A stretch of DNA of 64,000 nucleotides. Source: Arenibacter sp. P308M17 (lineage in GTDB: Bacteria > Bacteroidota > Bacteroidia > Flavobacteriales > Flavobacteriaceae). Below, piece after piece: positions 27,526-62,167 of the stretch (position 1 is its first letter; each line of letters opens with the position of its first letter). The translations under genes and the position numbers were made by a program. The notes beneath the pieces are model-generated. The model worked only from the letters and a program-made list of their open reading frames with translations, searched no databases and had not been told where the DNA came from. Location of the stretch: contig NZ_QVON01000001.1 in assembly GCF_003426735.1 (NCBI RefSeq), forward strand, positions 620,001-684,000, given 5' to 3'.

Positions 27526-27541
27526 ATGCAAACCTTTGCAT
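27526..27541. promoter_or_regulatory. LacI-type operator 1 (inositol regulon)
   Basis: ATGCAAACCTTTGCAT, a near-perfect palindrome whose only asymmetric bases are the central CC. It is identical to the site before iolJ (33650-33665) and matches the site before the GH92 operon at 15 of 16 bases. It lies 82 bases before susC. The likely binder is the LacI-family protein encoded at 32591. Confidence 0.82.
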
Positions 27542-27623
27542 TGCTTTTTAAGACCTAAAAATTCCGACATCGTTAAATTAGTGTTAATTTGGTTATGACA
27601 AAACTAATTTAAACTGTGAAAAT

Positions 27624-30572
27624 ATGAAGAAACTGAAATTTTTGATGTTTGTCTTTTTGATAGGCACATCTATGACATCATGGGCACAGACCACTGTAAC
27701 CGGTACGGTGTCCGATGAACAGAATGTTCCCTTGCCCGGTGCAACAGTGGTGGAAAAAGGAACTTCAAATGGAACTACTACCGATTTTGATGGGAATTTT
27801 ACCATACAAGTATCGGAGGAAAGTGCTATTTTGGTGGTATCCTTTTTGGGATACGCTACCAAGGAGTTCCCGCTTAACGGTCAGACCAATATGAACGTGG
27901 CCTTGCAGGAAGACTCCTCATTATTGGACGAGGTGGTCGTAGTTGGTTATGGTACCCAAAAAATTAAGGACGTAACCGGTGCGGTAAAACGGGTAACCAG
28001 TGAGGATTTTAACAAAGGGGTCGTTAATAATGCGGGCCAACTTATTCAAGGTAAGGCTGCAGGTGTCAATGTTACTTCTTCAAGTGGAGAGCCTGGTAGT
28101 GGTCAACGTATTGTAATTCGTGGACAAGGAACTATTCGTTCTGGGTCGGGGCCACTATTTGTATTGGATGGTTTTCCATTGGGATTGGCAGGTACGGGTT
28201 CTGTGGAAAGTCCTTTAAATTTTATAAATCCAGATGATATAGAGTCTATTGATATTCTTAAAGATGCCTCGGCAACTGCTATTTATGGTTCTAGAGGAGC
28301 CAATGGTGTAGTTATTATTACAACTAAAAATGGAAAGGCCGGTGTTTCTAAAATATCACTTTCCACAAATGTAGGTGTCTCTACACTGGCACGTAAATTG
28401 GATGTTTTCAGTGCAGATGAATTTCGTAGGCAAGTTGCTGCAATTCCAGGGAATGAACTTATAGATGGGGGAGGTTCTACGGATTGGCAGGAAGAATTGA
28501 CCAGGGCCGCGATTACACAAAACTATAATCTCGTATTGTCGGGAGGAACCGATAAATTAAATTATTACGCTTCCTTAGGTTTGCAAGACCAGGAAGGGAT
28601 TGTATATAATTCAGACTTAAAAAGAACGAGTGCTAGAATTAATGTAACCCAAAAATTATTGGATAATAGGTTAAGAATTGACTATAATTTAAATACCACA
28701 CTTACCGATCAATCCAGAAATAACAATTTGGGGTATAGCACCAATCCAACCTTTGATGCGTATACTGCGGATGGAGAAATTAACAATCCCCTAATTTGGA
28801 ACAACCCTTTATTGTCCAACAAATATAACGGCGATTTCTCAGAATCCCGAAGGATTTTGATAAACATAGCACCATCTTTTGAAATTGTGAATGGTTTGGT
28901 ATACAAGCTCAACTATGGTTATGAAAATAGATCATCGGATAGGGATGAGCAGACAATAGCGAATAGTGACAGAAATGATTTAGGTTTTTTAAGACAAACA
29001 TTTGGGAAGTATGAAAACAACCTAATTGAGAACTATTTAACCTATACATTTGATATTGGGGAGCACAATATTAGTGTTTTAGGAGGGCACTCCTTCCAAA
29101 ATACGTTTTCGAGAAATAGTAGTTGGTCCATTGATGAATTTCCAGCCGATACAGGTATAGATCCTCGTAATAATCCTGGATTGGGAGGGGATACCAACAT
29201 TACTGACCATAGGCCTTCAGGTAGTACCTATGAAGATGAACTACAATCCTTTTTTGGTAGGGCCAACTGGAGTTTTAAGGATAGATATCTCTTTACGGCC
29301 ACAGTAAGGGCCGATGGCTCCTCTAAATTTGGCGGGAACAATAAATACGGTGTGTTTTCTTCCTTTGCGGGCTCTTGGAGGATTATTGAGGAAGACTTTA
29401 TGGAAGGTTCTATTTTTAGTGATTTAAAATTAAGGGCTGGCTGGGGACAAACAGGAAATCAGGAAATTCCCGGAAAAATTACAAAAGCTTCCTTTTCGGT
29501 CAGTAATTCCAATAACGTGAGTTATCCTATCGATCAGAATGGTGCATACCCCGTAGGTTCCGTGTATACTCGTTTCGCCAACCCCGATATTCAATGGGAA
29601 GTTTCGACCCAATCCAATGTGGGTGTTGATTTTGGATTGTTCAATGGTAGTTTAACGGGTACTGTGGATTATTTCCATAAAGTATCGGATAATATTCTCT
29701 TAGAGGTGGTACCAGTAGATCCTATCGTGCCTGCCCCAACGTATTGGACAAATGTTCCGGACATGACCATTACCAATAAAGGATTGGAAGTTGCTCTGGA
29801 TTATTCTAAACAAAATGCTGATGGACTTTCCTATGGGTTTGGAGGGAACGCAACTTTTATTGATAATTTAGTGGAAGACTCTCCTTTCACAATTGTAACG
29901 ACTGGATCTGCATCCGGACAAGGACTTACGGATGCTACTATCAATGGATTTGTAAGTGGGGAAGCCATAGGGGCATTTTATATGCAAACTTTCCTGGGTA
30001 TTGGGGATGATGGTCTATCACTGTTTGCGGACAATGATGGGGATGGGGAGATAACTGAAAAGGATAGAACCATTGTTGGAAGTGCTTTGCCAGATCTGAC
30101 CTATAATTTTTACGCAAATTTAAAATATAAAAATTTTGATTTTAACGTGAATTTTAACGGAGTATCCGGTAATGAAATTTATGACCATACTGCCATGGGG
30201 AGTTTTTATAAAACCTTGTTGAGTAAATCCAACAATACCACAGCTGCAGCCATTCAGTATCCTGAAGAAAGTATTATAAATTCTGCAGCGGTTTCCACTC
30301 GTTATTTAAAAGATGGCTCTTATTTAAGATTGAATAATATGACCCTTGGATATTCGTTCGATACAAAATCCATGTCTTGGGCCTCAAACTGGTTGCAAGA
30401 ATTCCGCCTAAGCTTTACAGGCCAGAATCTATTTGTTATTACGGATTATGATGGTTACGATCCCGAAGTAAATACAGATAGCTCAACGAATGGAATTCAA
30501 TCCTTTGGTATAGATAAGTTCGCATATCCAAAAGCAAGAACATTTGTTTTTGGAGTGAATGTATCCTTTTAA
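27624..30572 (+). CDS. SusC-family TonB-dependent receptor of the inositol locus
   Basis: A 982-residue receptor. The signal peptide MKKLKFLMFVFLIGTSMTSWAQ is followed by the carboxypeptidase-regulatory-like domain (VTGTVSDEQNVPLPGATVV), a TonB-box-like DEVVVVGYGTQ, a plug with ASATAIYGSRGANGVVIITT and a barrel ending FVFGVNVSF. It takes up a ligand that should contain or release inositol, because the same operator controls it and the inositol genes. It pairs with the SusD 18 bases downstream. The middle of the gene looks more AT-rich than its neighbours (19 of 60 G+C in the line at 28681). A SusC for free inositol would be unexpected, so a larger inositol conjugate is more likely. Confidence 0.95.
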   Translation: MKKLKFLMFVFLIGTSMTSWAQTTVTGTVSDEQNVPLPGATVVEKGTSNGTTTDFDGNFTIQVSEESAILVVSFLGYATKEFPLNGQTNMNVALQEDSSLLDEVVVVGYGTQKIKDVTGAVKRVTSEDFNKGVVNNAGQLIQGKAAGVNVTSSSGEPGSGQRIVIRGQGTIRSGSGPLFVLDGFPLGLAGTGSVESPLNFINPDDIESIDILKDASATAIYGSRGANGVVIITTKNGKAGVSKISLSTNVGVSTLARKLDVFSADEFRRQVAAIPGNELIDGGGSTDWQEELTRAAITQNYNLVLSGGTDKLNYYASLGLQDQEGIVYNSDLKRTSARINVTQKLLDNRLRIDYNLNTTLTDQSRNNNLGYSTNPTFDAYTADGEINNPLIWNNPLLSNKYNGDFSESRRILINIAPSFEIVNGLVYKLNYGYENRSSDRDEQTIANSDRNDLGFLRQTFGKYENNLIENYLTYTFDIGEHNISVLGGHSFQNTFSRNSSWSIDEFPADTGIDPRNNPGLGGDTNITDHRPSGSTYEDELQSFFGRANWSFKDRYLFTATVRADGSSKFGGNNKYGVFSSFAGSWRIIEEDFMEGSIFSDLKLRAGWGQTGNQEIPGKITKASFSVSNSNNVSYPIDQNGAYPVGSVYTRFANPDIQWEVSTQSNVGVDFGLFNGSLTGTVDYFHKVSDNILLEVVPVDPIVPAPTYWTNVPDMTITNKGLEVALDYSKQNADGLSYGFGGNATFIDNLVEDSPFTIVTTGSASGQGLTDATINGFVSGEAIGAFYMQTFLGIGDDGLSLFADNDGDGEITEKDRTIVGSALPDLTYNFYANLKYKNFDFNVNFNGVSGNEIYDHTAMGSFYKTLLSKSNNTTAAAIQYPEESIINSAAVSTRYLKDGSYLRLNNMTLGYSFDTKSMSWASNWLQEFRLSFTGQNLFVITDYDGYDPEVNTDSSTNGIQSFGIDKFAYPKARTFVFGVNVSF

Positions 30573-30590
30573 TAAAAAATATAATTAGAT

Positions 30591-32276
30591 ATGAAAAACA
30601 AGATAAAATTAGCATTGTTGTTTGGCAGCATGTTATTAAGTTGGAATTGTACTGATCTTGAAGAAAATGTTTTGGACGAATCTTTGAATCCCAGTACTGA
30701 AGGAATCGATGAGGCTATGGCAGCGATAGCTCCCGTATATGCAAATGCAAATAATGATATATGGGTACACACGAAATATTTTTCAATGCAGGAAATCTCT
30801 ACGGATGAAGCCATTTTGCCCTATAGAGGTGGTACCGATTGGGGAGATGGTGGAAAATTTTCGGATTTATATCGTCATGCCATGACTCCCGGAAATGCTA
30901 TAATGAAAGATGTTTGGGAAGGGGTTACGAAACATATCGCTAGATCGGTTAGTGCTATTAATGCTTTGGAACCGTTGACGGAAACCGATCCTCAAGCGGT
31001 GGTGTATTTAGCAGAAGCCAAGGCCATGAGGGCTTTGTTCAACCACATTTTATTGGATGCATTTGGGTTGGTGTTCGTTAAGGATAATATTGATGACCAA
31101 TCCGTTATTCTTAGAGGAAGTGAAGCGGTTGATTACTTGATCAGTGAATTGAAGGCTGCAGAGCCAGATTTATCAACTACTACGGCCGTAGGGCCTGGAA
31201 GGATGACCAAGACAGGTGCTAAGGCGTTATTGGCAAGAATATATTTAAATGCAGCTGTGTATAGGGACCCTTATGGAACACCTAATTTTACTCAAGAAGA
31301 TATGGATGCCGTTATCGATTATGCGAATCAAGTAATTAATTCCAATGAGCATACCCTGTCTGCCGAATATTTTGAAATATTCGATGATGAAAACCATACC
31401 AATAAAGAATTAATTTTTGCAATTGATCAACGTCCGGATTTGGGAGGACATAATCGTATGGCCTATTTTTCCATGTCAGGGGACTTTTACCCGCTTCCTG
31501 AATTTCCAAGTGCCAATGGAACGGATGGTCCTGCTATTACGCCCGATTTTTATCAAAGTTGGGTGGATGCCTATGGGGATGTAGATCCTGCTGATGCCGA
31601 TCCCCGATTCCATAAGGATAATTTAATCAATGAACCCGGATGTGTAAGTGCCGAGGATTTCGAAGTTGATAGGGGTATTTATAGGGGGTTATTGTACGGA
31701 TTGCAACATGAACAGGGAGGGGATCCCTTTGAACGATGTGAAGGGGATAAATATGTAGTGGATTTGGTAAAAAACCGCAGGTCCGAGGTAGGTGATCCGG
31801 TTTTCCATTCATTGGAGGTGGATTTTACAACCAATAGTGCGCATAGTAATGGATATAGAGTTGAAAAATATGAATTCAGTAAAACCTCTGATTCCGGTAG
31901 GAATAACGGACAGGCCGATTTGGTAGTACTTCGTTATGCAGATATATACCTTATGCGGGCAGAAGCTATGCTCAGAAATGGGGATGCCGGCGCAGCGCTT
32001 AGCGATGTGAATTTCGTTAGGGCTTCCAGAACGGCCAGGCATACAGCTCCGGCACTTGACGCAATGGACCTGGATATTCTGTATCGAGAGCGCGGCTTTG
32101 AGTTTTATTGGGAATTTCAGAGAAGGACCGACATGATCCGCTTTGGAAAATATGAGGACTCATATACCGAAAAAACAAATTCCGACCCCCAAAAACGTCT
32201 AATGCCAATTCCCCAAAGTGCTGTTGATGGAGCGTCCATACTTGATGGATTCTTGGTTCAAAATGCAGGTTACTAG
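30591..32276 (+). CDS. SusD/RagB-family lipoprotein of the inositol locus
   Basis: A 561-residue SusD-like protein. The signal peptide MKNKIKLALLFGSMLLSWNC gives lipobox Cys20. Family segments include YLAEAKAMRALFNHILLDAFG, LVVLRYADIYLMRAEAMLRNG and ILYRERGFEFYWEFQRRTDMIRFG, with the ending LMPIPQSAV. It is the surface binding partner of the receptor encoded immediately upstream, and is followed by a strong terminator (32303-32339). The LacI-type regulator gene starts 315 bases after the stop. The ligand is inferred to carry inositol. Confidence 0.94.
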   Translation: MKNKIKLALLFGSMLLSWNCTDLEENVLDESLNPSTEGIDEAMAAIAPVYANANNDIWVHTKYFSMQEISTDEAILPYRGGTDWGDGGKFSDLYRHAMTPGNAIMKDVWEGVTKHIARSVSAINALEPLTETDPQAVVYLAEAKAMRALFNHILLDAFGLVFVKDNIDDQSVILRGSEAVDYLISELKAAEPDLSTTTAVGPGRMTKTGAKALLARIYLNAAVYRDPYGTPNFTQEDMDAVIDYANQVINSNEHTLSAEYFEIFDDENHTNKELIFAIDQRPDLGGHNRMAYFSMSGDFYPLPEFPSANGTDGPAITPDFYQSWVDAYGDVDPADADPRFHKDNLINEPGCVSAEDFEVDRGIYRGLLYGLQHEQGGDPFERCEGDKYVVDLVKNRRSEVGDPVFHSLEVDFTTNSAHSNGYRVEKYEFSKTSDSGRNNGQADLVVLRYADIYLMRAEAMLRNGDAGAALSDVNFVRASRTARHTAPALDAMDLDILYRERGFEFYWEFQRRTDMIRFGKYEDSYTEKTNSDPQKRLMPIPQSAVDGASILDGFLVQNAGY

Positions 32277-32590: not shown

Positions 32591-33616
32591 ATGAAGAAGG
32601 GCCGCGTTACCATTAAAGATATTGCGCGGGAGCTCAATATTGCAGCTTCAACGGTTTCCCGGGCCTTGAACGATCATCCGGCCATAAAAAAGGAAACTAG
32701 GGATGCCGTTAAGGCGTTGGCGGAAGCATTGGATTATCAGCCCAATCTGTTGGCCTTGAACCTGCTGCAAAAGAAATCCAACACCATAGGGGTGATCGTT
32801 CCGGAGATTACGGGCCATTTTTTTTCCGCCATAATTACCGGTATACAGGATGTCATCGTTGACTCCGAGTACAATATTATGATCTGTCTCTCCAACGAAT
32901 CCTACGAGGAAGAGCTGACCATTGTAAAGAAATTGTCAAAGATCCAGATAGATGGGGTTCTGGTAGCGCCATCATCCGAGACCAAGGATTTTGATCATTT
33001 CCGTAGACTGCAAAAAAGTGGAATTCCCGTGGTGGTCTTTGATAGGGATTGTCCGGGCTTGGAAGCTGATAAGGTGTTGGTGGATGATTATTTTGGTGCT
33101 TTTCAGGCAGTGGAATACCTTATAGGTACAGGCTGTAAAAATATAGCACACCTTGGGGGTCCTTTAAATTTAAGTACTACCGAACAAAGGCTTCAGGGAT
33201 ATTTGGATGCCCTCGGGAAAAATGGGGTTCCTGTCAACAGGGATTATATTGTCCATGTACCAGGCTTTTCGCATAAGGATGGTGCCAGGGCCACTAGAAA
33301 AATATTGGAACTCAAAGATAGGCCCGATGCCATTTTTGCATACAACGATAATATCGCCATTTCAGCTATGTACATTGCAAAGAAATTGGGGTATTCAATA
33401 CCAGGGGAAATCTCCGTTCTGGGTTTTGACGATGAGCCGCATTCCGCTTATATTAGTCCCTCTTTGTCCACAGTCTGGCAACCGGTCTACAGTATGGGAA
33501 TGCTTTCGGCCAGGATTTTATTAAGCCATTTGAACAATAAAAATAATACCCTGGATTTTCGAAAGGAAGTCTTTAAGCCGGAATTGGTAATTAGGGCTTC
33601 ATCCAAGGCAAAATAA
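32591..33616 (+). CDS. LacI-family transcriptional regulator of inositol catabolism
   Basis: A 341-residue LacI/GalR regulator. Residues ~6-52 are the helix-turn-helix with hinge (TIKDIARELNIAASTVSRAL, then YQPNLLALNL). Residues ~60-335 are a periplasmic-binding-protein-like effector domain (NTIGVIVPEITGHFFSAII, ISVLGFDDEPHSAYISPSLST). LacI proteins bind short even-spaced palindromes, and ATGCAAACCTTTGCAT fits. Copies of it lie before susC (27526), iolJ (33650) and the metallophosphatase-GH92 operon (62152). The effector may be inositol or a pathway intermediate. Bacillus uses a DeoR-type IolR for the same pathway, so the regulator type here differs. Confidence 0.9.
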   Translation: MKKGRVTIKDIARELNIAASTVSRALNDHPAIKKETRDAVKALAEALDYQPNLLALNLLQKKSNTIGVIVPEITGHFFSAIITGIQDVIVDSEYNIMICLSNESYEEELTIVKKLSKIQIDGVLVAPSSETKDFDHFRRLQKSGIPVVVFDRDCPGLEADKVLVDDYFGAFQAVEYLIGTGCKNIAHLGGPLNLSTTEQRLQGYLDALGKNGVPVNRDYIVHVPGFSHKDGARATRKILELKDRPDAIFAYNDNIAISAMYIAKKLGYSIPGEISVLGFDDEPHSAYISPSLSTVWQPVYSMGMLSARILLSHLNNKNNTLDFRKEVFKPELVIRASSKAK

Positions 33617-33649: not shown

Positions 33650-33665
33650 ATGCAAACCTTTGCAT
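33650..33665. promoter_or_regulatory. LacI-type operator 2 (inositol catabolic operon)
   Basis: ATGCAAACCTTTGCAT, identical over all 16 bases to operator 1 (27526-27541). It lies in the 142-base gap between the regulator gene and iolJ, 93 bases before the iolJ start. Control of the whole iol operon from here is the simplest reading. Confidence 0.85.
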
Positions 33666-33758: not shown

Positions 33759-34700
33759 ATGCACCTATCTCCAAAGATATTTTATGAACACTGTTATGGC
33801 AAATATGCCATTGCAGCCGTCAATGTTTTTACCATGGAACAGGTCCTCGGACTTTTTAGTGCGGGAGAAAGGGCCAATGCCCCTTTTATAGTCCAGATTA
33901 CACCTGCAGCAAGGAATTATGCCCACCCTACCATGCTAATTGCCATGATCAATGCGGCGGCCAAAATATACCCCAAAGCGGTGTACGCCGTCCATATGGA
34001 TCACGGCAACGAGGAACATGCCTTTGATGCGATCCTATCCAACGATTATAAGTCCATTATGATCGACGCCTCCCATGATAGTTTTAAGGACAACGTAAAA
34101 AGGACCAAGGCCGTGGTGTTGGAGGCACATAAGAAAAATATAGTTGTAGAGGCGGAATTGGGTGTGCTGAGCGGGGTGGAAGACGATCTGTCCATAGATG
34201 AAAAACACGCCAAATATACCCAGCCGTCAGAGGTGCAGGAATTTGTGGAGTTGACGGGATGCGACAGCCTGGCCGTCGCGGTAGGTACCAGTCATGGGGC
34301 CTATAAATTTTCCGGAGGGGATGGTATACAGTTTGCCATATTGGAGGAAATCCAACAGCGATTGCCCCAATTTCCGATAGTGCTGCACGGTGGCTCCGCC
34401 GTAAATTATCAGGAAATAGAACGGATCAACAGGGCAGGGGGGAATTTGAACGAAGGGGCTTCCGGGGTTTCGCCCCAAGAGATTGTGAAATCTATTGCCT
34501 ATGGGGTCTGTAAGATCAATATAGCAACAGACACCAGGCTTTTGTGGACAAGGGTGCACCGGGAATTCTTTAAGGATACTCCCGAGCTATTCGATCCCGT
34601 TGTTCCAGGGAAGACCTATATGGCGGAATACGAAAAATTTATGCTGGAAAAGTTTGATCTCCTAAGGGCTACGGGAAAAACAAGTTATATAAAGATTTAA
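33759..34700 (+). CDS. iolJ: Class II aldolase, probable 6-phospho-5-dehydro-2-deoxy-gluconate aldolase (IolJ role)
   Basis: A 313-residue class II (zinc) fructose-bisphosphate-aldolase-family enzyme. Zinc and catalytic features are VHMDHGN near residue 86, IVVEAELGVLSG near residue 129, VGTSHGAYKF near residue 172 and VLHGGSAVN near residue 209, where the last histidine ligand lies. Many class II aldolases act on fructose 1,6-bisphosphate. Here it is the first gene of an operon with IolB, IolC, IolD, IolA, IolE and IolG, so cleavage of 2-deoxy-5-keto-gluconate 6-phosphate to dihydroxyacetone phosphate and malonate semialdehyde is the likely reaction. A LacI-type operator precedes it, and iolB follows after 11 bases. 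Confidence 0.85.
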   Translation: MHLSPKIFYEHCYGKYAIAAVNVFTMEQVLGLFSAGERANAPFIVQITPAARNYAHPTMLIAMINAAAKIYPKAVYAVHMDHGNEEHAFDAILSNDYKSIMIDASHDSFKDNVKRTKAVVLEAHKKNIVVEAELGVLSGVEDDLSIDEKHAKYTQPSEVQEFVELTGCDSLAVAVGTSHGAYKFSGGDGIQFAILEEIQQRLPQFPIVLHGGSAVNYQEIERINRAGGNLNEGASGVSPQEIVKSIAYGVCKINIATDTRLLWTRVHREFFKDTPELFDPVVPGKTYMAEYEKFMLEKFDLLRATGKTSYIKI

Positions 34701-34711: not shown

Positions 34712-35587
34712 ATGGAACATAGTTCACATTTACAAATAAAGCCAAGATCCGAAACAGGAATATATCATAGTATCACCACCAAAACGGCCAAGTGGAAATA
34801 CCTCAATTTTGAGGCCAGGCTCATGAACAAAGGGGAAACTTGGGAGCATGATACCCTGAATAACGAAATGGTGATCGTACTTTTGGGCGGTAACTTCAAA
34901 GTGGAAAGCAATCAGGGAAATTGGGAAACCAAAAATGGACGAAAGGATGTTTTTAGCGGAGTGGCGCATACCTTGTACCTTTCGCGCAATAGTAAATTTA
35001 TGTTGACCGCCTTGAGCGATACCTTGGATATAGGATACGGTTGGTGCCAAGTGGATGAGGATTTTCCGGCCAAGTTCGTGACTCCCGAAGATACCCCCAT
35101 AGTCATTTTTGGAGGGGACAATGCCACTAGGCAGTTCAATGATCTGGTGCCACCGGGTTTTGGCTGTAGCAAAATAGTAGTGCGGGAAGTGTATACGCCT
35201 TCAGGGAATTGGAGTTCCTTTCCTGCCCACAAACACGATGAAAGGTTGGTGGGAACAGACGGTACGGTACTGGAGCCGATTCAGGAGGAGACCTATTTCT
35301 ATAAGTTCCAAAAGCCCGAGGCCTACGCCATACAGCAGGTATATACCAAGGATAGGTCCCTGGACGAAATAGTTAGGCCAAGACATAACGATGTGGTATT
35401 GATACCCAAAGGCTACCATCCGGTGGTGGCAGAGCATGGCTTTCATTGCTATTACCTAAATTTTCTGGCCGGTACGGACCAATGCCTGGCCAATTCCACC
35501 GATCCGGATCATGAATGGATTTATGGTTCCTGGACCTCAAAGGACAAAAGATTGCCATTGGTAATTGCGGAAATGAATAAACAATAA
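34712..35587 (+). CDS. iolB: 5-deoxy-glucuronate isomerase (IolB)
   Basis: A 291-residue bicupin of the IolB/KduI family. Family marks are WEHDTLNNEMVIVLLGG in the first cupin, REVYTPSGNWSSFPAHKHDE (metal histidines in PAHKHDE) and the second-half LIPKGYHPVVAEHGFHCYYL with a GSWTSKD-type ending. It isomerises 5-deoxy-glucuronate to 2-deoxy-5-keto-gluconate in inositol breakdown. Only 11 bases separate it from iolJ and six from iolC, so the three are translationally close. Assignment is strong because of the operon as well as the motifs. Confidence 0.92.
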   Translation: MEHSSHLQIKPRSETGIYHSITTKTAKWKYLNFEARLMNKGETWEHDTLNNEMVIVLLGGNFKVESNQGNWETKNGRKDVFSGVAHTLYLSRNSKFMLTALSDTLDIGYGWCQVDEDFPAKFVTPEDTPIVIFGGDNATRQFNDLVPPGFGCSKIVVREVYTPSGNWSSFPAHKHDERLVGTDGTVLEPIQEETYFYKFQKPEAYAIQQVYTKDRSLDEIVRPRHNDVVLIPKGYHPVVAEHGFHCYYLNFLAGTDQCLANSTDPDHEWIYGSWTSKDKRLPLVIAEMNKQ

Positions 35588-35593: not shown

Positions 35594-36607
35594 ATGAGCG
35601 ATAAAAAGTTTGATGTAATTACGTTTGGAAGGTCCAGTATCGATCTTTATTCCCAGAATATCGGGGCCCCCTTTAATGAAATAAAAGGGTTCGATGCCTT
35701 TGTGGGAGGGTCTCCGCTCAATATAGCCGTGGGCTGTGCAAGATTGGGCGTCAATGCCAGTCTTTTAACAGCGGTAGGTAATGATAAGGTGGGAGAGTTT
35801 ATCTTGAATTTCCTGAACAGGGAAGGGGTAAACACCCATGCCATCCCAGTAAAAAATGGCACTAGAAGTAGTGCGGTGGTACTGGGCATAGAACCTCCGG
35901 ATAAATTTCCCCTAGTGTATTACAGGGACAATGCGGCCGATAGTCAAGTAGATATCGATGATGTGGATAGGGCCAATATCCAGGACTACAAAATATTGTT
36001 GATCAATGGTACCGCATTGAACATAGAGCCTACCAGGAGCGCTACCTTTTACGCCACGGAAATAGCCAATAGGAATGATGTGGATGTGGTGCTAGATTTG
36101 GATTTTAGGGCGGACCAATGGCATGATTATAGGGCATTCGGATTAACCGTAAGGGCCATTTTGCCCAGGGTAAAAATAGCCATTGGTACGGAAGAGGAAA
36201 TCCTGGCCGCCACCCTGATCGATGCTTCCCAGGTGACCATTAAGGAACAACAAATTTCGGCACCGGAAATTAAGGGGGATATTGATGAATCCATCAAACA
36301 ATTGCTTTCTTCCGGGATAGAGACCCTGATCGTAAAACGAGGGGAGAAGGGGGCAAGTATATACCAAAAGGACGGCTCCAGAGAGGATGTTCCCGGATTT
36401 CCCGTAGCGGTTCTGAACGTACTGGGTGCCGGTGATGCCTTTGCCAGCGGATTCCTATATGGTATTCTACAAGGATGGGGTTTAAAAAAAGCATGCCGGA
36501 TGGGGAATGCCAGTGGTGCGCAAGTGGTTACCAAAAAGGGCTGTGCCAATTTTATGCCTACCTTGGAAGAATCCTTGGACTTTATAGATCAAAAGGGCGG
36601 ATTTTAA
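35594..36607 (+). CDS. iolC: 5-dehydro-2-deoxygluconokinase (IolC), PfkB family
   Basis: A 337-residue ribokinase/PfkB-type kinase. The N-terminus FDVITFGRSSIDLYSQNIG and the substrate loop FVGGSPLNIAVGCARLG are typical of IolC, and the ATP/anion-hole motif NVLGAGDAFASGFLYG holds the catalytic aspartate. It phosphorylates 2-deoxy-5-keto-gluconate at C6, producing the aldolase substrate. In some bacteria IolC is fused to a DUF2090 aldolase domain; this one is not, which fits the separate IolJ. It follows iolB by six bases. Confidence 0.93.
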   Translation: MSDKKFDVITFGRSSIDLYSQNIGAPFNEIKGFDAFVGGSPLNIAVGCARLGVNASLLTAVGNDKVGEFILNFLNREGVNTHAIPVKNGTRSSAVVLGIEPPDKFPLVYYRDNAADSQVDIDDVDRANIQDYKILLINGTALNIEPTRSATFYATEIANRNDVDVVLDLDFRADQWHDYRAFGLTVRAILPRVKIAIGTEEEILAATLIDASQVTIKEQQISAPEIKGDIDESIKQLLSSGIETLIVKRGEKGASIYQKDGSREDVPGFPVAVLNVLGAGDAFASGFLYGILQGWGLKKACRMGNASGAQVVTKKGCANFMPTLEESLDFIDQKGGF

Positions 36608-36707: not shown

Positions 36708-38567
36708 ATGACAACAAAAAGACTTACCGTGGCCCAGGCTACAATTGAATATCTAAAAAATCAATATGTTGAACGGGATGGGATCCAGAACAGGTTTTTT
36801 GCCGGTTGTTTTGGGATTTTGGGCCATGGCAACGTGGCAGGAATAGGACAGGCACTGCACCAAAACCTCGACTTTCCCTTTTACGTAGCCCGTAACGAAC
36901 AGGGAATGGTGCATACGGCGGCAGCCTTTGCCAAGGTAAAGAACAGGTTACAGACCTTTGTCTGTACTTCTTCCATTGGTCCAGGGGCTACCAATATGCT
37001 TACCGCTGCCGCTGCGGCCACTATCAATAGGATTCCGGTTCTCTTGATTCCCGGCGATATATTTGCCACAAGACAGGTGGCCCCTGTATTGCAGCAGTTG
37101 GAATCCAATCTGTCACAGGATGTATCTGTCAATGATTGCTTTAAACCCGTATCCAAATATTGGGACCGGATCAATAGACCGGAACAATTGATTACCGCCT
37201 TGCCAGAAGTAATGCGGGTGCTCACCTCCCAAGCGGAAACAGGAACGGTTACCCTTTGCATTCCCCAGGACGTGCAGGCGGAAGCCTTTGATTTTCCAGA
37301 GGAAATGTTCCAAAAGCGTGTTTGGTACATAGGTAGGAACATGCCGGACCAAACCCTGTTGTCCAGGGCCATTGCCCTGATCAAGGAAAGTAAGAGGCCA
37401 ATTATTATTTCCGGTGGCGGTACTATTTATAGCGATGCCACCGCCATATTGAAAAAATTGGTCAATAGAACGGGGATACCCGTGGCCGAAACCTTTGCGG
37501 GAAAGGGCTCCTTGGATTATAACGAACCGCAAAATTTGGGAGCTGCAGGGGTAACGGGTACACCAGGGGCCATAGCAGTGGCAAGGGAGGCCGATCTGGT
37601 CATAGGGCTAGGTACAAGATATAGTGATTTTACTACCATCTCCAAGTCGGCCTTCCAAGATCCCAAGGTCCAATTTATAAATATAAATGTTACAGAATTC
37701 GACTCCTTTAAGCACGGGGCATTGCCGTTGATAGGGGATGCCAAGGCCATATTGGAAACTCTGGATAGGGAGTTGTCCACTTTTAAAGTGAGCGCGGATT
37801 ATCGTGAAAAAGTGGAGCGTTTTAATAAGGACTGGGATCAATTTGTAGAGGATATCTATGCGGAAAAGAATGGGGTGCCCGCTTTTCAGGGAGAGGTGAT
37901 CGGAGCCATAAATTCCTTTTCCAACCCTGAGGATATAGTGTTGTGTGCTGCAGGAAGTCTTCCAGGGGATCTCCATAAACTGTGGCGGACGCGAAACCCG
38001 AAAGGCTTCCATCTGGAATACGGATATTCCTGCATGGGGTATGAGATTGCCGGTGGGCTGGGGGCCAAAATGGCACGTCCTGAAAGTGAGATATATGTGA
38101 TGGTGGGCGATGGCAGTTACCTGATGATGGCGCAAGAGATCGTAACATCGATCCAAGAAAAACAGAAGATGACCATAGTGCTCTTGAACAATGATGGTTA
38201 TTCCAGTATTGGAAGCCTTTCCAGTTCCCTTGGTAGTGAAGGTTTCGGAACCTATTATAGATATCGAAATGAGGAGACGGACCAATTGGACGGAGGAAAG
38301 TTGCCCATAGATTATGCGGCCAATGCTGCCAGTATGGGGGCACATGTCATTAAAGCGGCCAATGTAAAGGAATTGAACGAGGCCCTTAAAACAGCCAAGA
38401 CCTTGGACAGGACTACCGTAATCTACATAGAGGTAGACCGTAAAAAGGCAGTTCCGGGTTTTGCCTGGTGGGATGTGGCCGTGGCCGAAGTATCGGACAA
38501 AAGTGGCGTAAAGAAGTCTTTGGAAACCTATAGGGAGAACAAGAAGACCCAAAAATATTATTTATAG
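36708..38567 (+). CDS. iolD: 3D-(3,5/4)-trihydroxycyclohexane-1,2-dione hydrolase (IolD)
   Basis: A 619-residue thiamine-diphosphate enzyme. The N-terminal pyrimidine-binding half has the conserved glutamate region VARNEQGMVHTAAAFAK, and the C-terminal half carries the diphosphate motif, starting GDGSYLMMAQE and ending LLNNDGYSS. IolD opens the six-membered ring of the dione, giving 5-deoxy-glucuronate, and is the hallmark enzyme of the pathway. It lies 100 bases after iolC, the largest gap in the operon. A weak inverted pair AATGCCC/GGGCATT (about 36622-36672) in that gap could form a long-looped hairpin, but no terminator is apparent. Confidence 0.94.
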   Translation: MTTKRLTVAQATIEYLKNQYVERDGIQNRFFAGCFGILGHGNVAGIGQALHQNLDFPFYVARNEQGMVHTAAAFAKVKNRLQTFVCTSSIGPGATNMLTAAAAATINRIPVLLIPGDIFATRQVAPVLQQLESNLSQDVSVNDCFKPVSKYWDRINRPEQLITALPEVMRVLTSQAETGTVTLCIPQDVQAEAFDFPEEMFQKRVWYIGRNMPDQTLLSRAIALIKESKRPIIISGGGTIYSDATAILKKLVNRTGIPVAETFAGKGSLDYNEPQNLGAAGVTGTPGAIAVAREADLVIGLGTRYSDFTTISKSAFQDPKVQFININVTEFDSFKHGALPLIGDAKAILETLDRELSTFKVSADYREKVERFNKDWDQFVEDIYAEKNGVPAFQGEVIGAINSFSNPEDIVLCAAGSLPGDLHKLWRTRNPKGFHLEYGYSCMGYEIAGGLGAKMARPESEIYVMVGDGSYLMMAQEIVTSIQEKQKMTIVLLNNDGYSSIGSLSSSLGSEGFGTYYRYRNEETDQLDGGKLPIDYAANAASMGAHVIKAANVKELNEALKTAKTLDRTTVIYIEVDRKKAVPGFAWWDVAVAEVSDKSGVKKSLETYRENKKTQKYYL

Positions 38568-38587: not shown

Positions 38588-40186
38588 ATGAATTCCGAAC
38601 TGATCATTATCCTAACCTCATTCCTGCTTTTTACCGGAGGAGTTGCCTTTTTTACATGGTACAGTCTTAGAAAAACAAACCTAACCTCATCCGACGGTTA
38701 TTTCTTGGGAGGTAGAAGCTTAACTGGAATCGTAATAGCAGGTTCCATGTTGTTGACCAACATTTCGTCCGAACATCTTATCGGGATGAACGGTAATTCC
38801 TATGTCAATGGTTTTATTGTCATAGCTTGGGAAGTCACCTCTTCCATAGCCCTTGTTATTGCGGCCATTTTTTTTGTGCCCAAATATTTAAAGATGGGAC
38901 TTACCACCATACCCCAGTTTTTGGAAAGTAGATTTGATGGGATGACCAGGACAATGGTAGCCGCCATTCTTATCTTTTCCTTTGTGGTGACCTTGTTGCC
39001 CATCGTTTTATATTCCGGGGCAATAGGCATTGAAAGTCTCTTTGGTATTTCGGAGGCCCTAGGGGTCAGTAAATCCGAAGGCTTATGGATTACAGTGGTC
39101 ATTATTGGGGTCATAGGGTCCATATACGCCATATTTGGAGGCTTAAAGGCCGTGGCCTATTCCGATACCATTAATGGACTTGGACTATTATTGGGGGGTC
39201 TTTTAATACCGGTTTTGGCGTTGATGGCCATAGGGGACAACAATATTTGGGACGGATTGGTCAAGGTATATGAATATGCCCCCGAGAAATTCAATGTGGT
39301 AGGGGCACGGGATTCTGTACTGCCCTTCGAAGTATTGTTTACGGGCCTTATTATTAATCAGCTCTATTTCTGGGGAATGAACCAGACGATCATCCAAAGG
39401 GCCTTGGGGGCGAAAAACCTGAAGGAGGCCCAAAAGGGACTGTTGATAACGGGACTTTTCAAGATCTTGATTCCCCTGATCATTGTATTGCCCGGGGTAA
39501 TTTGTTATTATTATTTTCAGGATACCTACTTCGATCAACAGGACACCGTTTACCCACAATTGGTCAAGAAGGTGCTGCCGGTCTGGTTGATAGGCTTTTT
39601 TGCGGCCGTAATTATGGGGGCGGTATTGAGTACCTTTAACTCTGTTCTGAATTCTGTGGCCACCCTGTTCAGTATGGATATTTACAAGAAGCATATCGCA
39701 AAGGATGTCAGCGATAATAAACTGGTAAAGATCGGGAAGGCTACTTCCGCCATTTTAGCGGTAATGGCAATTTTTGCAGCCCCAATGGTGGCCAATGCTT
39801 CGGACGGACTGTATCAATTGCTACAAGAGCTGAACGGGATATTCTTTATACCGATCGCCTCTATTTTATTGGCCGGTTTCTTTATGAAAAAGGTCTCGGC
39901 AATGGGGGCAAAGGTAGCCCTTATATTCGGGCTCTGTTTTTATGTTTTTATGACCTGGGGCTACACCTCCCACGGCATTCATTTTGTGCATTTATGGGGA
40001 ATAGAGTTCTTGCTGAACGTGGCCATCATGTATTCGGTGTCCTATTTCTATCCCAATGATAACAAGTATGAAATTACAGATGTTGGCGCGGTAAATCTAA
40101 AAGCTTGGAAATATACCATTCCTATGTCCATTGGTTTGTGCGCCGTTACCGTGTTAATATATGTCCTGCTCTGGAACAACCAGTAG
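38588..40186 (+). CDS. SSS-family sodium:solute symporter, probable inositol transporter
   Basis: A 532-residue membrane protein with about 13-14 hydrophobic segments. SSS (SLC5-like) signatures are TSSDGYFLGGRSLTG near residue 33, the GSIYAIFGGLKAVAYSDTING segment and FAAVIMGAVLSTFNSVLNSV. Bacterial SSS proteins import sugars, inositol, amino acids or sialic acids with sodium. Its position between iolD and iolA in a single-direction operon makes myo-inositol the probable substrate, which would let inositol released in the periplasm enter the cytoplasm. It begins 20 bases after iolD. Confidence 0.88.
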   Translation: MNSELIIILTSFLLFTGGVAFFTWYSLRKTNLTSSDGYFLGGRSLTGIVIAGSMLLTNISSEHLIGMNGNSYVNGFIVIAWEVTSSIALVIAAIFFVPKYLKMGLTTIPQFLESRFDGMTRTMVAAILIFSFVVTLLPIVLYSGAIGIESLFGISEALGVSKSEGLWITVVIIGVIGSIYAIFGGLKAVAYSDTINGLGLLLGGLLIPVLALMAIGDNNIWDGLVKVYEYAPEKFNVVGARDSVLPFEVLFTGLIINQLYFWGMNQTIIQRALGAKNLKEAQKGLLITGLFKILIPLIIVLPGVICYYYFQDTYFDQQDTVYPQLVKKVLPVWLIGFFAAVIMGAVLSTFNSVLNSVATLFSMDIYKKHIAKDVSDNKLVKIGKATSAILAVMAIFAAPMVANASDGLYQLLQELNGIFFIPIASILLAGFFMKKVSAMGAKVALIFGLCFYVFMTWGYTSHGIHFVHLWGIEFLLNVAIMYSVSYFYPNDNKYEITDVGAVNLKAWKYTIPMSIGLCAVTVLIYVLLWNNQ

Positions 40187-40224
40187 CAGAATTACTTTGA
40201 GCAATAATATTAAACAATTTGAAA

Positions 40225-45869: not shown

Positions 45870-45899
45870 AATCGGAAAGTGCGCCAACACTTCCCGATT
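45870..45899 (+). other. Hairpin in the 5' leader of susC
   Basis: Arms AATCGGAAAGTG (45870-45881) and CACTTCCCGATT (45888-45899) pair over 12 positions with one mismatch, around a CGCCAA loop. There is no T-run, and the hairpin lies 43 bases before the ATG at 45943. It may stabilise or attenuate the receptor message between fecR and susC. Confidence 0.5.
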
Positions 45900-45942
45900 A
45901 GGTGTGATCAAATTAATTAACCACGTAAAACACTACAAAAAT

Positions 45943-49464: not shown

Positions 49465-49475
49465 TTGCATAAAAG

Positions 49476-57869: not shown

Positions 57870-60131
57870 TTAATTATTTTTGAAGATGGTGTAATTGGGA
57901 CTGCTTCCCATTTTAAATTCGAGGACATTGCCGTTCATTATTTGGGTATAGCTAATAAAGGGTTCCTCCAATACCTTCCCATCCAATTTCAGCGATTGTA
58001 TGTATAAATTTTCTTCCGAGAGATCATGTGCTATTATTTTAAAGGATTTTGGCGCCCCATCCTTGAGTAACCTTAGGGTGAATTCCGGGAATTGCGGGGC
58101 GCCAATGGCAAATGTTTCATTTGCCGGCGTAACGGGGTAAAACCCCATTACACCAAATATGTACCAGGCCGACATTTGCCCGCAATCATCGTTTCCGTTT
58201 ATACCCAAAGGATGGTTTCTATAATTAATGGTCGAGGTGTGCTTGCGAATCAATTCTTGGGTTTTCCAGGGCTGTCCGGCGTAATTGAATAGGTAGGCAT
58301 AATGATGCCCGGGTTCGTTATCGTGCCTGTAGTGTTGCCCATCAAAGTTTTCATTTAATTTGGCGGCAAACTCTTCCTTTCCCCCAAAGAGGGCTATACT
58401 GCCCTGAATATCGTGCATGGCACCAAACAAATAGGTCCATCTGCCACCTTCGGTAAAGCCTTCCTGTTCGTTTTTGTCCCAATCGCCGTTATAAAGTCGC
58501 GCATTAAGGAACCCCGTTTCCTTGTTGTAGAGATTTTTATAATTCTTGCTCCATCCCATTAATCGCCCGTAGTCTTCCATTTTACCCATATCCTTGGCCA
58601 TCTGGGCAATACTGTAGTCATCTATTCCAAACTCGATGGTCCTGGTTACGGATTCCCTGGTCTTATCCGAAGCTACATACCCTAGGGAATGGTAATAGGT
58701 TAGTCCGCCCCTTGCTTCGTACAAAGTACCTTCGTCCCTGTCTCCCCAAGGCTTTTCGGTATCACTGTATGGCGGGTGCATGGCATTTTTTCTAACGGCT
58801 GCATAGGCCAATTCCAGGTCATAATCCCTAAAACCCTTTATATATGCATCCGCTATTACCGCATCGGCATGGGTTCCGGTCATGATGTTGGTATAGGTAG
58901 GATTGGGCCATTTTGGCAACCAACCTCCTTCCTGGTACATTTGTAATAGGGATTTTACCATGGGGCTTACCCGTTCCGGATGTGTAAAATGGAGTAGGGG
59001 ATGCAGGGCCCTAAAAGTATCCCAAAGGGAATAATCGTTATAGGAAACTCCCTCATGGACCTTATCATCGAACGGACTGTAATAACGTCCGTATTCCGAA
59101 AACTCCCTAGGGAACAACATGGTATGGAACAAGGCGGTGTAGAAAATGCTTTTCTGATCTTCGGTGGCACCATCTACCTTGATTCTGGAAAGGTTTTCCT
59201 GCCATATGTTCCCAGTATTTTGTACTACTTTGTCAAAATCCCAATCCGGTATCTCCTTGGACAAGTTTTCCCGGGCCTGTTCCAAACTTATAAAGGAGGT
59301 GGCAATTTTTACCTTTATTTTTTCATTCTTATCGGTTTTGAAACTGATATACCCTCCCATTCTTGCCCCCGTCTGCTCCCTGCCCATTTCATTGATATCG
59401 GGTTCTGTCCTAAAAGAATTCCATGTACCAAAGCGTTCAAAGGGTTTATCGAATTGAATAATAAAATAGCCTTTAAAGTTTTTAAGTTCCGGTCCTAAAT
59501 GGGATGACATTCGCTCCGGGTTATAGCCCGTTATCTCCCTTTTGTTTTCATCAATCTGGATATGGCCATGAAAAGCCTTCTTGTTTTCGGTTATATTGAT
59601 ACCCTGGATAACGATATGGGATTCATCCGATTTTGGGAAGGTAAATTGAAAGATACCGCAGCGGGAGGCAGCGGCAATTTCACCTTTTATCCTTTGTTCT
59701 TTATTCCCCATAGAAACACTGTAGTAATTGGGTTTTGAGACCTCCTCCTTGTGGCTAAAGGGCAGGGCCCGGTCTTTGGGGAGAAGTTTTAATTTTCCAA
59801 CCTGTGGCATAACGGATACGTAGCCATAATCGCCCATCCAGACCGTTGGTTGGTGCGTTGCCATAAAGCCTTGAATGGTATTGTCCTCATAGACGTAGGG
59901 CATTTCGCTTATTTTGTTCTCACGGGTCTGGGCCACAAAATTGGTCATCGCAAAAGGGGTACCCACACAGGGCATAGTGCCACCACCGTCCCTGCCCTCC
60001 ATAAATCCGGCCACAGGCGTGCCAATGAGGGGGTTAACGTAATCAATTTCCAATTGTTGCTGTGCAGGCACGTAGGCCATCCAAAATAGGAAAAGGGGCA
60101 GTGCGTACAGGATTCTCTTATTCGTTTTCAT
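57870..60131 (-). CDS. GH92-family alpha-mannosidase
   Basis: A 753-residue secreted enzyme with signal peptide KRILYALPLFLFWMAYVPAQ. GH92 features in order: an N-terminal YVNPLIGTPVAG with PCVGTPFAMTNF, YNDYSLWDTFRALHPLLHF, the catalytic-loop NEPGHHYAYLFNYAGQPWKT and the base-loop GNDDCGQMSAWYIFGVMGFYP. GH92 enzymes are calcium-dependent exo-alpha-mannosidases with inverting mechanism; some act on mannose phosphodiesters or mannosides of inositol lipids. The start overlaps the end of the upstream metallophosphatase gene by 14 bases, so the two enzymes are made together. Linkage specificity cannot be read by eye. Confidence 0.93.
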   Translation of the reverse strand: MKTNKRILYALPLFLFWMAYVPAQQQLEIDYVNPLIGTPVAGFMEGRDGGGTMPCVGTPFAMTNFVAQTRENKISEMPYVYEDNTIQGFMATHQPTVWMGDYGYVSVMPQVGKLKLLPKDRALPFSHKEEVSKPNYYSVSMGNKEQRIKGEIAAASRCGIFQFTFPKSDESHIVIQGINITENKKAFHGHIQIDENKREITGYNPERMSSHLGPELKNFKGYFIIQFDKPFERFGTWNSFRTEPDINEMGREQTGARMGGYISFKTDKNEKIKVKIATSFISLEQARENLSKEIPDWDFDKVVQNTGNIWQENLSRIKVDGATEDQKSIFYTALFHTMLFPREFSEYGRYYSPFDDKVHEGVSYNDYSLWDTFRALHPLLHFTHPERVSPMVKSLLQMYQEGGWLPKWPNPTYTNIMTGTHADAVIADAYIKGFRDYDLELAYAAVRKNAMHPPYSDTEKPWGDRDEGTLYEARGGLTYYHSLGYVASDKTRESVTRTIEFGIDDYSIAQMAKDMGKMEDYGRLMGWSKNYKNLYNKETGFLNARLYNGDWDKNEQEGFTEGGRWTYLFGAMHDIQGSIALFGGKEEFAAKLNENFDGQHYRHDNEPGHHYAYLFNYAGQPWKTQELIRKHTSTINYRNHPLGINGNDDCGQMSAWYIFGVMGFYPVTPANETFAIGAPQFPEFTLRLLKDGAPKSFKIIAHDLSEENLYIQSLKLDGKVLEEPFISYTQIMNGNVLEFKMGSSPNYTIFKNN

Positions 60132-62076
60132 ATATGGGTTGTTTTAAGGAAATAATTGTGCCGGAGTTAAGGTTCAACTGAAAGTGGTCCGAAGGCGCTC
60201 CATTGAGAAATTTATTGAAAATACTGGCAAGTAGGTACATTTTTCTTTTTATAGGGTCGTCTTTCCCTTGAAATGAGGGATTGTTCAAAATGGAATCAAT
60301 GATCAATCGATATTGTTTTGTCCTTTGGGCTCCTATATCCTTCAGGGCCAATCTGTCGGCACTTCTTAGCCTATATAGATCCAACAATAGGTCATATCCG
60401 GACCACTCTTCAAAATGGGTTGTAACGGCCTGTATTTTCCTTGTTTTTTCTTTAACGGAATTGGACAATTCCTTTATTTTGTCCGGGTTGTCCCTAAGGT
60501 TTTTCAAGACCATATGTAAAGGAAGGGAGGTATTGTCCATGGAGAGAAGTAGTAGCTCCTTGCCCGAAAGTCCGACTAAAAAATCCTTAAAATCAGCTGG
60601 CCATTCATCAGGAAGGAATCGAAGGCGCACAAGTTCTTTTAGGTGCCATTCCATAAATTCACCATAGTTTTGTGAAGATAGGACTTCTTTGTTCCATATA
60701 CGCCCTTCTTTCATGTGTTCCAGGAAAGTGTATTCCTGATGGTATAGCCCAAAAAACTCCTTGTATTTAGGAACGGAATCCATTACAATGGTTTCCACTT
60801 CTGCAAATCCGCCTTCTTTGAGCGTCAAAATTTTAAAGGCTGGTTTGTAGGCGGCCAGGGATGGGGTCTGAATATTGAATAAGGTGTTTCCTTCATCGGA
60901 AACGGCCACCCCGGTATCATTTAGGTGCATATGGCCTCCCAAATGAAGTTTTAGTCCGGCTTGGGCAAATAATTGGGCTACCCTTTTATCGGGAACCCTT
61001 TTTAATTGCATTTTACTGCCAACAAGAAGTTCTTCCATTTCCGGGGAGGCCCCATCATTGAATTCTACCATAGGGTAATGGCTGAAGGCAATAAGGGTTT
61101 TACCCATTTTTTTGGCATTGTCCGCTACTTTACATACCCAGTCCAATAAGTACTTTTTGTCTTTCAATAGATTGTTTAATCCGAGACCGGTATTTGGGTA
61201 TTCTTGCCGGGAGGGGTCGCCACCCTGTTTTTCTTTTTGAGTGTAAGTATTGGCGTCCAGGGCCAATAGCCACAATCCTTCAACAGGTTCTACCAAATAG
61301 CTTATATCGGGAATTGGCAGGCCATATGGTGGAATGCTGTGACTTCTTTTTGTTAGATCCGCGGTTTGTTCCGCTTTGTGAAAACTATAATTTTCGTAGT
61401 TATATTCTGAAAAAGGGGTTCCCCAATAGAGATATTCCTTTTTTGGGAAAAAGCCATAGTCCCCCAAAAACCTTGTGATTTCTTCATAACCTAGATTTTG
61501 AAGATCACTGGAGATTACAACGGGATGTTCTTTATTTTGTTTGGAAGTATACATGCCGGGTTGTGACATTATGGGCTGTGCCTTTCCGTCAGCACCAAGA
61601 AAATCCGTTTTGCCATCCCTTCTATTAAAAGGTTGTACCACGTCGTGATTGCCCGTTATAAGAAAGAACTTAATTCCGTAAGTAGTGGTATAGTGGTCCA
61701 GAATTTCCTTTAACGCACGAATATGAATGGGCTGCCCGTCATCTGAAAAATCTCCGGGCAGAATAACGTATTTAATATTTCTGTCCACTACATTATCCAT
61801 AGCGGACAAAAAGGCGAAATAATTTTCATTGAAAATCCTTGTGGAATGCAACTGCGATTCCATGGTCCTTATATGTGCGTATTTCCCATTTTCTACATTT
61901 TTAAGCCCCATATAATCATTGTCCTTTAACTGCCCGTAAACATTGCTTAAATGAATATCGGCTATTACGGCAATTTTTATGGCCTCCAGGGTGGTAGATT
62001 TTATTGGTGCGCACGAAACAGCTATGGTTAAACCGATCATTAACAGGTAAGGGAGCAATGGCTTTTGAAAAATCAT
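60118..62076 (-). CDS. Calcineurin-like metallophosphatase, large lipoprotein
   Basis: A 652-residue metallophosphoesterase. The frame reaches a start at 62193, but the ATG at 62076 begins a lipoprotein signal (FQKPLLPYLLMIGLTIAVSC), so it is preferred. Metal-site motifs are VIADIHLS, LPGDFSDDG, LITGNHDVV, IAFSHYPM and HLGGHMHLND, the complete set of the calcineurin-like fold (residues ~35-400). The remaining ~230 residues form a helical C-terminal domain not recognised here. It is the first gene of an operon with GH92, and a LacI-type operator lies 76 bases upstream, linking it to inositol catabolism. A phosphodiester or phosphate on a mannose- or inositol-bearing glycan is the plausible target. 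Confidence 0.87.
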   Translation of the reverse strand: MIFQKPLLPYLLMIGLTIAVSCAPIKSTTLEAIKIAVIADIHLSNVYGQLKDNDYMGLKNVENGKYAHIRTMESQLHSTRIFNENYFAFLSAMDNVVDRNIKYVILPGDFSDDGQPIHIRALKEILDHYTTTYGIKFFLITGNHDVVQPFNRRDGKTDFLGADGKAQPIMSQPGMYTSKQNKEHPVVISSDLQNLGYEEITRFLGDYGFFPKKEYLYWGTPFSEYNYENYSFHKAEQTADLTKRSHSIPPYGLPIPDISYLVEPVEGLWLLALDANTYTQKEKQGGDPSRQEYPNTGLGLNNLLKDKKYLLDWVCKVADNAKKMGKTLIAFSHYPMVEFNDGASPEMEELLVGSKMQLKRVPDKRVAQLFAQAGLKLHLGGHMHLNDTGVAVSDEGNTLFNIQTPSLAAYKPAFKILTLKEGGFAEVETIVMDSVPKYKEFFGLYHQEYTFLEHMKEGRIWNKEVLSSQNYGEFMEWHLKELVRLRFLPDEWPADFKDFLVGLSGKELLLLSMDNTSLPLHMVLKNLRDNPDKIKELSNSVKEKTRKIQAVTTHFEEWSGYDLLLDLYRLRSADRLALKDIGAQRTKQYRLIIDSILNNPSFQGKDDPIKRKMYLLASIFNKFLNGAPSDHFQLNLNSGTIISLKQPIYENE

Positions 62077-62151
62077 AGATATATTGGGGTACGCACCAAT
62101 CAAAAAAACGATAAAATATTGATAACACGAAGGATAGGGTGAATATTTATT

Positions 62152-62167
62152 GTGCAAAGGTTTGCAT
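62152..62167. promoter_or_regulatory. LacI-type operator 3 (before metallophosphatase-GH92 operon)
   Basis: GTGCAAAGGTTTGCAT, the reverse complement of the inositol operator at 15 of 16 positions and identical over the 14-base core. It lies 76 bases before the metallophosphatase start. It brings the phosphatase and mannosidase under the likely control of the LacI-family protein encoded almost 29 kb away. Confidence 0.78.

Follow-up and report, generated by a model that had tools for sequence, protein, structure and literature searches.

The 64,000-nucleotide stretch of Arenibacter sp. P308M17 analyzed here (contig NZ_QVON01000001.1, positions 620,001 to 684,000; hereafter the window) carries copies of a 16-nucleotide palindromic operator, ATGCAAACCTTTGCAT, in front of genes for a SusC/SusD-type importer (inositol susCD), an inositol catabolic (iol) operon and a distant operon encoding a metallophosphoesterase (MPPase) and a GH92 alpha-mannosidase. 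Site distribution and gene content make it likely that one LacI regulon joins inositol catabolism to extracytoplasmic inositol release from phosphorylated, partly mannosylated conjugates. An initial annotation of this DNA had proposed that the operator links these three units, and our analysis supports such a link, as the same promoters recur in the genus and the site tracks the LacI ortholog. The predicted regulon is also larger than that annotation saw, with five promoters in the window genome.

Operator copies in the window and the genome

The 16-mers at 27526..27541 and 33650..33665 (both on the + strand) are identical, exactly as first reported, and the copy at 62152..62167 on the - strand matches 15 of 16 positions. 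The first lies 82 bases 5' of the susC ATG, the second just 3' of lacI and 93 bases 5' of the iolJ ATG, and the third 75 bases from the MPPase ATG. All three are intergenic, as the initial annotation had it, although its spacing of 76-93 bases is corrected by these measured gaps. A mechanical TTG start at 62193 would cover the third site but is unlikely to be the true gene start because of the lipoprotein-like ATG start at 62076. This third site is common to the MPPase-GH92 pair and a divergent susCD (susC start 62503), an arrangement hidden by the window end. The only LacI homolog in the window (E<=1e-60) sits between the first two sites, and the next on the contig lies about 14 kb beyond the window end.

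A search of the whole genome (5.04 Mb) for the 16-mer, which had been suggested as a check, returned five places at no more than one mismatch compared to none in the control, three of them being the copies in the window. Of the two outside it, G000:C1:689899 precedes a gene encoding a TPR-AraC (HTH_18) regulator that adjoins the second susCD, and G000:C12:239356 is a perfect copy before an operon of susCD and two genes for EEP-family phosphatases (susCD-EEP-EEP; EEP1 and EEP2). With 3 mismatches allowed the window gave 6 matches, against 1.2 +/- 1.26 in shuffled sequences, a weak test in which 1 of 100 shuffles reached 6, while the whole genome gave 69 matches compared to 72 in the control; this is chance level, and therefore only the strict site (0-1 mismatch) is informative. 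The operator arms form a perfect palindrome around a centre that reads CC/GG in every perfect site of the genus and CG in some relatives only.

Conservation of the operator in Arenibacter

In a set of 18 Arenibacter genomes the site was found at 60 places with at most one mismatch, in comparison to 2 for the control, and perfect sites, all with the CC/GG centre, were present in 14 of the 18 (control 0). A LacI ortholog (75-100% identity) occurred in exactly the same 14 genomes; the four site-less genomes possessed only distant LacI homologs (<=43%; G002, G011 and G014) or none at E<=1e-60 (G010). The initial annotation had allowed that the palindrome might instead stand at many unrelated promoters, a pattern that was not observed, with 55 of the 60 sites falling into five promoter classes. 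The iol susC and iolJ promoters each carried the site in 14/14 LacI-bearing genomes, and the remaining classes were the MPPase or GH92 promoter (10 sites), the TPR-AraC promoter (12, two of them short copies, in G003 and G007) and the EEP susC promoter (5). The other five sites were situated inside genes (G006, G017), before a short-chain dehydrogenase gene (G005, G009) and before a glucuronyl-esterase-like gene (G013).

The GH92 ortholog (E<=1e-200) was found in 10 of the 18 genomes, all 10 of which have both LacI and the site, EEP2 at >=72% identity was found in five with the site before its susC in 5/5, and full-length TPR-AraC was found in 11, with the site in 10 of these. The earlier suggestion that the mannosidase is tied to the inositol LacI thus gains support, since the GH92 ortholog has the site in 10/10 of its genus genomes and is transcribed divergently from lacI at three loci of other genera (L099, L168 and L169). 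The site was also retained where TPR-AraC/susCD lies on a different contig with different neighbours (L043, L052, L061, L074, L076, L082) and before GH92 where MPPase is absent. Site-to-start distances by script were 82-83 bases for iol susC and 93-94 for iolJ, with the exception of G004, in which a mechanical start intrudes. Alignment of the five promoter sets showed 14-16 of the 16 operator columns conserved at >=90%, in contrast to 16-45% of flanking columns, although this difference is partly built in because the regions were chosen for a site of at most one mismatch. The presence of the site at both iol promoters in each of the 14 LacI genomes is free of this bias.

At the short-chain dehydrogenase promoter, the one-mismatch site ATGTAAACCTTTGCAT lies 94 bases (script measure) before the gene, which is beside a Gfo/Idh/MocA-type gene (L053:7764 in G005, L067:7499 in G009); this promoter is a possible sixth target.

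Co-occurrence of operator and LacI across the family

The association was extended to 397 genomes of the family, counting perfect sites only and LacI orthologs at E<=1e-100. The perfect 16-mer and the LacI ortholog were each found in 12 of 397 genomes and coincided in 11 (hypergeometric 1.7e-19) that span eight genera. Removal of the genus left 8 shared of 9 and 9 among 394 genomes (hypergeometric 6e-15); since the genomes are related and not fully independent, these values are not true probabilities. The two discordant genomes were G100, which has a site without LacI, located inside an open reading frame of 489 amino acids, and G047, which has LacI without a perfect site and a CG-centred copy before iolJ.

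Loci in other genera

All 11 non-Arenibacter loci encoding a LacI with 64-78% identity (L095-L104, L106) have the iol operon after lacI, and in each of them iolJ is preceded by a palindrome whose arms contain no more than two mismatches. No iol operon was found in the fetched stretches, some of them short, around 14 distant LacI homologs (L107-L120, 36-47%). Among whole genomes of the 11 loci (that of L102 left out), 9/10 had a site at no more than one mismatch compared to 1 in the control, and none was found genome-wide at this threshold in G026 (L104). The 51-row site listing for other genera holds some double views of one site (e.g. L100/L159, L103/L166).

The genes behind the site varied between lineages. 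GDPD-alkaline-phosphatase-like genes recurred (L095, L096, L100, L103, L106, L151, L163, L170, L173), though they are labelled GDPD on the strength of a short motif (30-position profile) that falls below cut-off in L106. A type I phosphodiesterase lies behind the site in L098 and EEP1 in L156 and L160, MPPase orthologs are found 41-81 bases from it in L155, L164, L165, L170 and L172, and the GH92 genes divergent from lacI (75-77% identity) have the site between the two genes. L151/L099 and L169/L170 each have SusCD and several GH92 genes clustered together, with GH28-like and GH125 genes in the same cluster in L151. In Ulvibacterium (L165) the order is site-MPPase-GH92-EEP2 beside iolG, and EEP2 stands directly 3' of iolG in L155 and L164 and 3' of the GDPD-alkaline-phosphatase gene in L106. 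The gene sets scattered in Arenibacter are thus more compact elsewhere, as iol, GH92, MPPase and EEP2 genes adjoin in other genera.

Two side observations were made at these loci. Two class-III aminotransferase genes follow GH92 behind the site in L157 (2473-5262), for which a role with ethanolamine-phosphate, as would fit glycosylphosphatidylinositol (GPI) glycans, is speculation. In a Jiulongibacter metagenome-assembled genome (L114:2812) a distant LacI homolog (36%) is followed by the palindrome TTGCAAACGTTTGCAA and a SusCD sharing 53-54% identity with the inositol SusCD, with no iol operon in the stretch; this LacI may be a relative that regulates the same kind of importer.

Phosphatase and mannosidase operons

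The GH92 alpha-mannosidase gene (57870..60131, - strand) encodes a protein with a signal-peptide-like start and both GH92 domains above cut-off, similar in sequence to the solved GH92 mannosidases 2wvy, 2wvx and 6f8z. The MPPase gene (60118..62076, - strand) encodes a lipoprotein-like protein whose metal-site motifs are kept in 10/10 aligned sequences and whose ortholog profile had 2xmo as its sole PDB match. EEP2 scored 74.8 for PF03372 (cut-off 24.5) and matched PDB 4c1r, deposited as a mannosyl-6-phosphatase, at E 5.7e-49. EEP1 had no PDB match at E<=0.01 with either single sequence or profile, so that the likeness to 4c1r does not extend to it. GH92, EEP2 and MPPase probably act outside the cytoplasm, because signal-peptide-like starts on the first two and a conserved lipobox-like Cys on MPPase were seen by eye. 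SusCD pairs also carry the operator, the window genome having one of them divergent from the GH92 operon; its second susC (5' part at 62503..64000, + strand) runs past the window end and is followed by susD and then by the convergent TPR-AraC gene with its own operator (G000:C1:689899).

The region of about 600 bases between operator and EEP susC (L027:10372-10997) has blocks conserved in five genomes. It gave no Rfam match at E<=0.1 and could be either a long leader or a hidden small gene.

Proposed regulon and alternative explanations

Under the proposed mechanism, the LacI protein would act through ATGCAAACCTTTGCAT on five promoters in the window genome, namely those of inositol susCD, iolJBCD-SSF-AEG, MPPase-GH92 (with the divergent susCD), the TPR-AraC gene and the distant susCD-EEP-EEP operon. 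LacI proteins usually act through repression that a ligand signal relieves, and here too LacI would most likely be a repressor, released when inositol or an early catabolite accumulates. Outer-membrane importers, secreted phosphatases, the alpha-mannosidase and the cytoplasmic inositol pathway would then be induced together, with the phosphatases and mannosidase stripping phosphate and mannose off bound inositol. The position of the TPR-AraC gene under a LacI site points to a possible regulatory cascade. The opposite sign of regulation is also conceivable, since no convincing -33/-7 promoter pair was seen by eye (Bacteroidetes-type elements were not searched systematically) and the LacI-type regulator IpsA, discussed below, is an activator.

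GPI glycans, phosphatidylinositol mannosides (PIM) and inositol-phosphoceramide glycans carry inositol, phosphate and mannose parts. A more specific reading, which we put forward tentatively, would be that the dispersed regulon, built on SusCD, is specialized for inositol phosphoglycans. Marine Flavobacteriaceae would then take up mannosylated inositol-phosphate head groups, take them apart and channel the inositol core to iol catabolism, with a single LacI controlling a set of mannosidases, phosphodiesterases and phosphatases that differs between lineages. The three conjugates named above are plausible guesses for these head groups, and for the regulon as a whole a GPI, PIM or sphingolipid head group as substrate is likewise only a plausible guess; for relatives that possess GDPD-like or phytase genes, glycerophosphoinositol or phytate would be a fitting substrate.

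Besides the provisos given with the GDPD label and the promoter alignment, several observations weigh against a single inositol-releasing regulon. Four of the 14 LacI-bearing Arenibacter genomes lack GH92, the TPR-AraC gene of G004 has no site at up to one mismatch, the MPPase orthologs of L151 and L158 have no such site in front, and no separate site accompanies EEP2 in L155 and L164. The link to the EEP operon also looks looser because 577-659 bases separate its site from the mechanical susC start. Recurrence indicates a common cis element and does not show which protein reads it, and weaker CG-centred palindromes occur near some distant LacI homologs that are unaccompanied by iol genes (L113, L114, L120). 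No enzyme for cutting the glycan-inositol bond was identified, and GH92 with EEP phosphatases would also fit phosphorylated N-glycan or mannan.

These weaker palindromes could be taken to mean that the element serves a broader sugar-responsive LacI, such as the paralog at G000:C1:698017, or that LacI-type sites of this kind are common, with the inositol link incidental; the operator core resembles general LacI-type operators, and several LacI paralogs are present in these genomes. However, 385 of the 397 family genomes lack the perfect 16-mer, site presence tracks the inositol LacI, and iol operon and palindrome accompany its closer homologs (11/11) while the iol operon is missing from the fetched stretches of distant ones (0/14), which together render this explanation very improbable. 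Chance matches could account for the 3-mismatch counts; at 0-1 mismatch the 60 places against 2 in the control leave chance a negligible probability, and it was rejected there on the ground that orthologous site positions are kept across species.

Two further alternatives concern the purpose of the enzymes. Were inositol a mere cue for eukaryotic detritus, LacI would co-induce enzymes for phosphorylated N-glycans or fungal/algal alpha-mannan with no release of inositol, in keeping with the resemblance of GH92 and EEP2 to structures deposited as alpha-mannosidases and mannosyl-6-phosphatase, with the mannan-like set of GH125 and several GH92 genes in Aestuariivivens and with the marine alpha-mannan polysaccharide utilization loci (PULs) holding six GH92 described in the available text of PMC9213526. 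This appears rather unlikely, as enzymes that would suit bound inositol recur in the predicted regulon (GDPD-alkaline-phosphatase-like proteins, phytase and a PI-PLC-like match below cut-off), EEP2 is in line with iolG in L155 and L164, and no GH76 endo-mannanase match was found among the genes scanned. Alternatively, the phosphatases may serve phosphate acquisition in a Pho regulon to which the shared sites merely add carbon control. Phosphate-starvation-induced SusCD-phosphatase clusters are reported for Flavobacterium in the part of PMC8115612 at hand, and the phytase insertion of G009, described below, holds a response regulator and histidine kinase; the recurring element is nevertheless a LacI-type palindrome, and no phosphate-related role is obvious for GH92 or the iol genes (no search for Pho boxes was made), so that this option is given a low probability.

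Relation to known systems

Free inositol or phytate is the source usually considered when inositol catabolism in bacteria is discussed. The iol operon is governed by IolR in Bacillus and Salmonella, as it would be by LacI here, but IolR proteins belong to the DeoR and RpiR families, and we know of no IolR control of mannosidase or phosphatase PULs. Nor are iol genes known to us from the alpha-mannan PULs of Bacteroides and Salegentibacter. These PULs share GH92, GH125, an EEP phosphatase (4c1r) and SusCD with the regulon proposed here, and the accessible sections of the main text contain no mention of inositol, phosphatase or LacI (PMC9213526).

Corynebacteria and Mycobacteria offer a regulatory parallel in IpsA, a LacI-type regulator linked to inositol that, according to the consulted sections of PMC3899939, activates inositol synthesis and whose complex with DNA is dissociated by myo-inositol. 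LacI family membership, a palindromic operator and inositol-linked targets are common to both systems. The ino1 operators of IpsA have a central CG, a feature stated in the same sections for palindromic operators of many LacI regulators, whereas the window operator has a CC centre (CG in some relatives) and its targets are catabolic genes and secreted hydrolases. As the central CG is a family tendency, its lack does not exclude LacI membership by domains. The Flavobacterium clusters for phosphate utilization likewise combine SusCD with secreted phosphatases, phytase and phosphodiesterase but, as far as the text of PMC8115612 seen describes them, are phosphate-responsive and aimed at phosphorus, where inositol carbon would be the aim here.

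Inositol gene clusters are reported in 2% of 810 Flavobacteriaceae species (PMC9430895). The portions of that main text at hand hold no mention of LacI, phosphatase or mannos-, and those of a review on gut inositol metabolism (PMC12482443) no mention of mannos-, GPI or SusC; no such regulon is described in titles or abstract openings among the matches listed in literature searches. What would be new here is the extension of a LacI catabolic regulon to scattered secreted phosphatases and mannosidases, whereas LacI inositol regulators, alpha-mannan PULs and SusCD-phosphatase clusters were known. If the proposal holds, this regulon would let marine bacteria reclaim the carbon and phosphate held in head groups of eukaryotic or actinobacterial membrane lipids and anchors. 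A short list of enzymes worth trying on GPI, PIM and sphingolipid glycans follows from it as well. One strict 16-bp site can tie dispersed operons to a substrate, and may thus guide the functional assignment of orphan SusCD pairs and phosphatases.

Gene content of the inositol locus

The locus (all genes on the + strand) begins with the SusC-type TonB-dependent outer-membrane transporter (27624..30572; TIGR04056, 778.8 bits, cut-off 368) and the SusD-type lipoprotein (30591..32276; PF07980). The LacI-family regulator follows at 32591..33616 and is the presumed reader of the operator given its domains, both above cut-off (helix-turn-helix PF00356, 49.2 vs 27; periplasmic-binding-type sensor PF13377, 111.5 vs 26.5), and its co-occurrence with the site. 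The iol operon then encodes an IolJ-like class II aldolase (33759..34700; TIGR00167, 230.9 vs 215.6), IolB, 5-deoxy-glucuronate isomerase (34712..35587; TIGR04378, 286.2 vs 205), IolC, 5-dehydro-2-deoxygluconokinase (35594..36607; TIGR04382, 382.6 vs 300), IolD (36708..38567; TIGR04377, 902.5 vs 715), a sodium:solute symporter (SSF; 38588..40186), an IolA-like CoA-acylating methylmalonate-semialdehyde dehydrogenase (40219..41700; TIGR01722, 537.5 vs 448.5), an IolE-like inosose dehydratase (41713..42618; TIGR04379, 213.6 vs 290) and IolG, inositol 2-dehydrogenase (42662..43672; TIGR04380, 447 vs 355). IolB, IolC, IolD and IolG are therefore above curated cut-offs and IolE is below its own, though IolE is still the best match for that protein.

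In G009, phytase and phosphodiesterase genes lie between lacI and iolJ, within an insertion (L064:11500 to L065:7139) that also encodes a SusC-like protein, a metallophosphatase, a response regulator and a histidine kinase; no operator was found within 4 mismatches just before its susC. Genes of similar length precede iolJ in G013 and G017 (L070, L080). Directly 3' of iolG in the window are genes for an ECF sigma factor, FecR and another SusCD (43982-51056), with no LacI-type site within 4 mismatches before the sigma gene; sigma-FecR-SusCD sets with a LacI-type site occur in the relatives L098, L158 and L162. On the other side, a sialic-acid-type cluster (9527-25686) adjoins the inositol locus and comprises an SSF-NanM fusion, a DHDPS-family gene, GlcNAc 2-epimerase, GH20, SusCD and a GntR regulator.

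Comparison of the window (27624-32276) with L044, L048, L069, L071, L075, L078 and L081 showed that iol susCD exists as two alleles within the genus, which share position and operator and neighbour a lacI with 75-92% identity. SusC identity to that of the window was 88-95% in six genomes (G003, G005-G009) and 55-56% in seven (G001, G004, G012, G013, G015-G017), a pattern suggestive of allele swapping that might serve different inositol conjugates.

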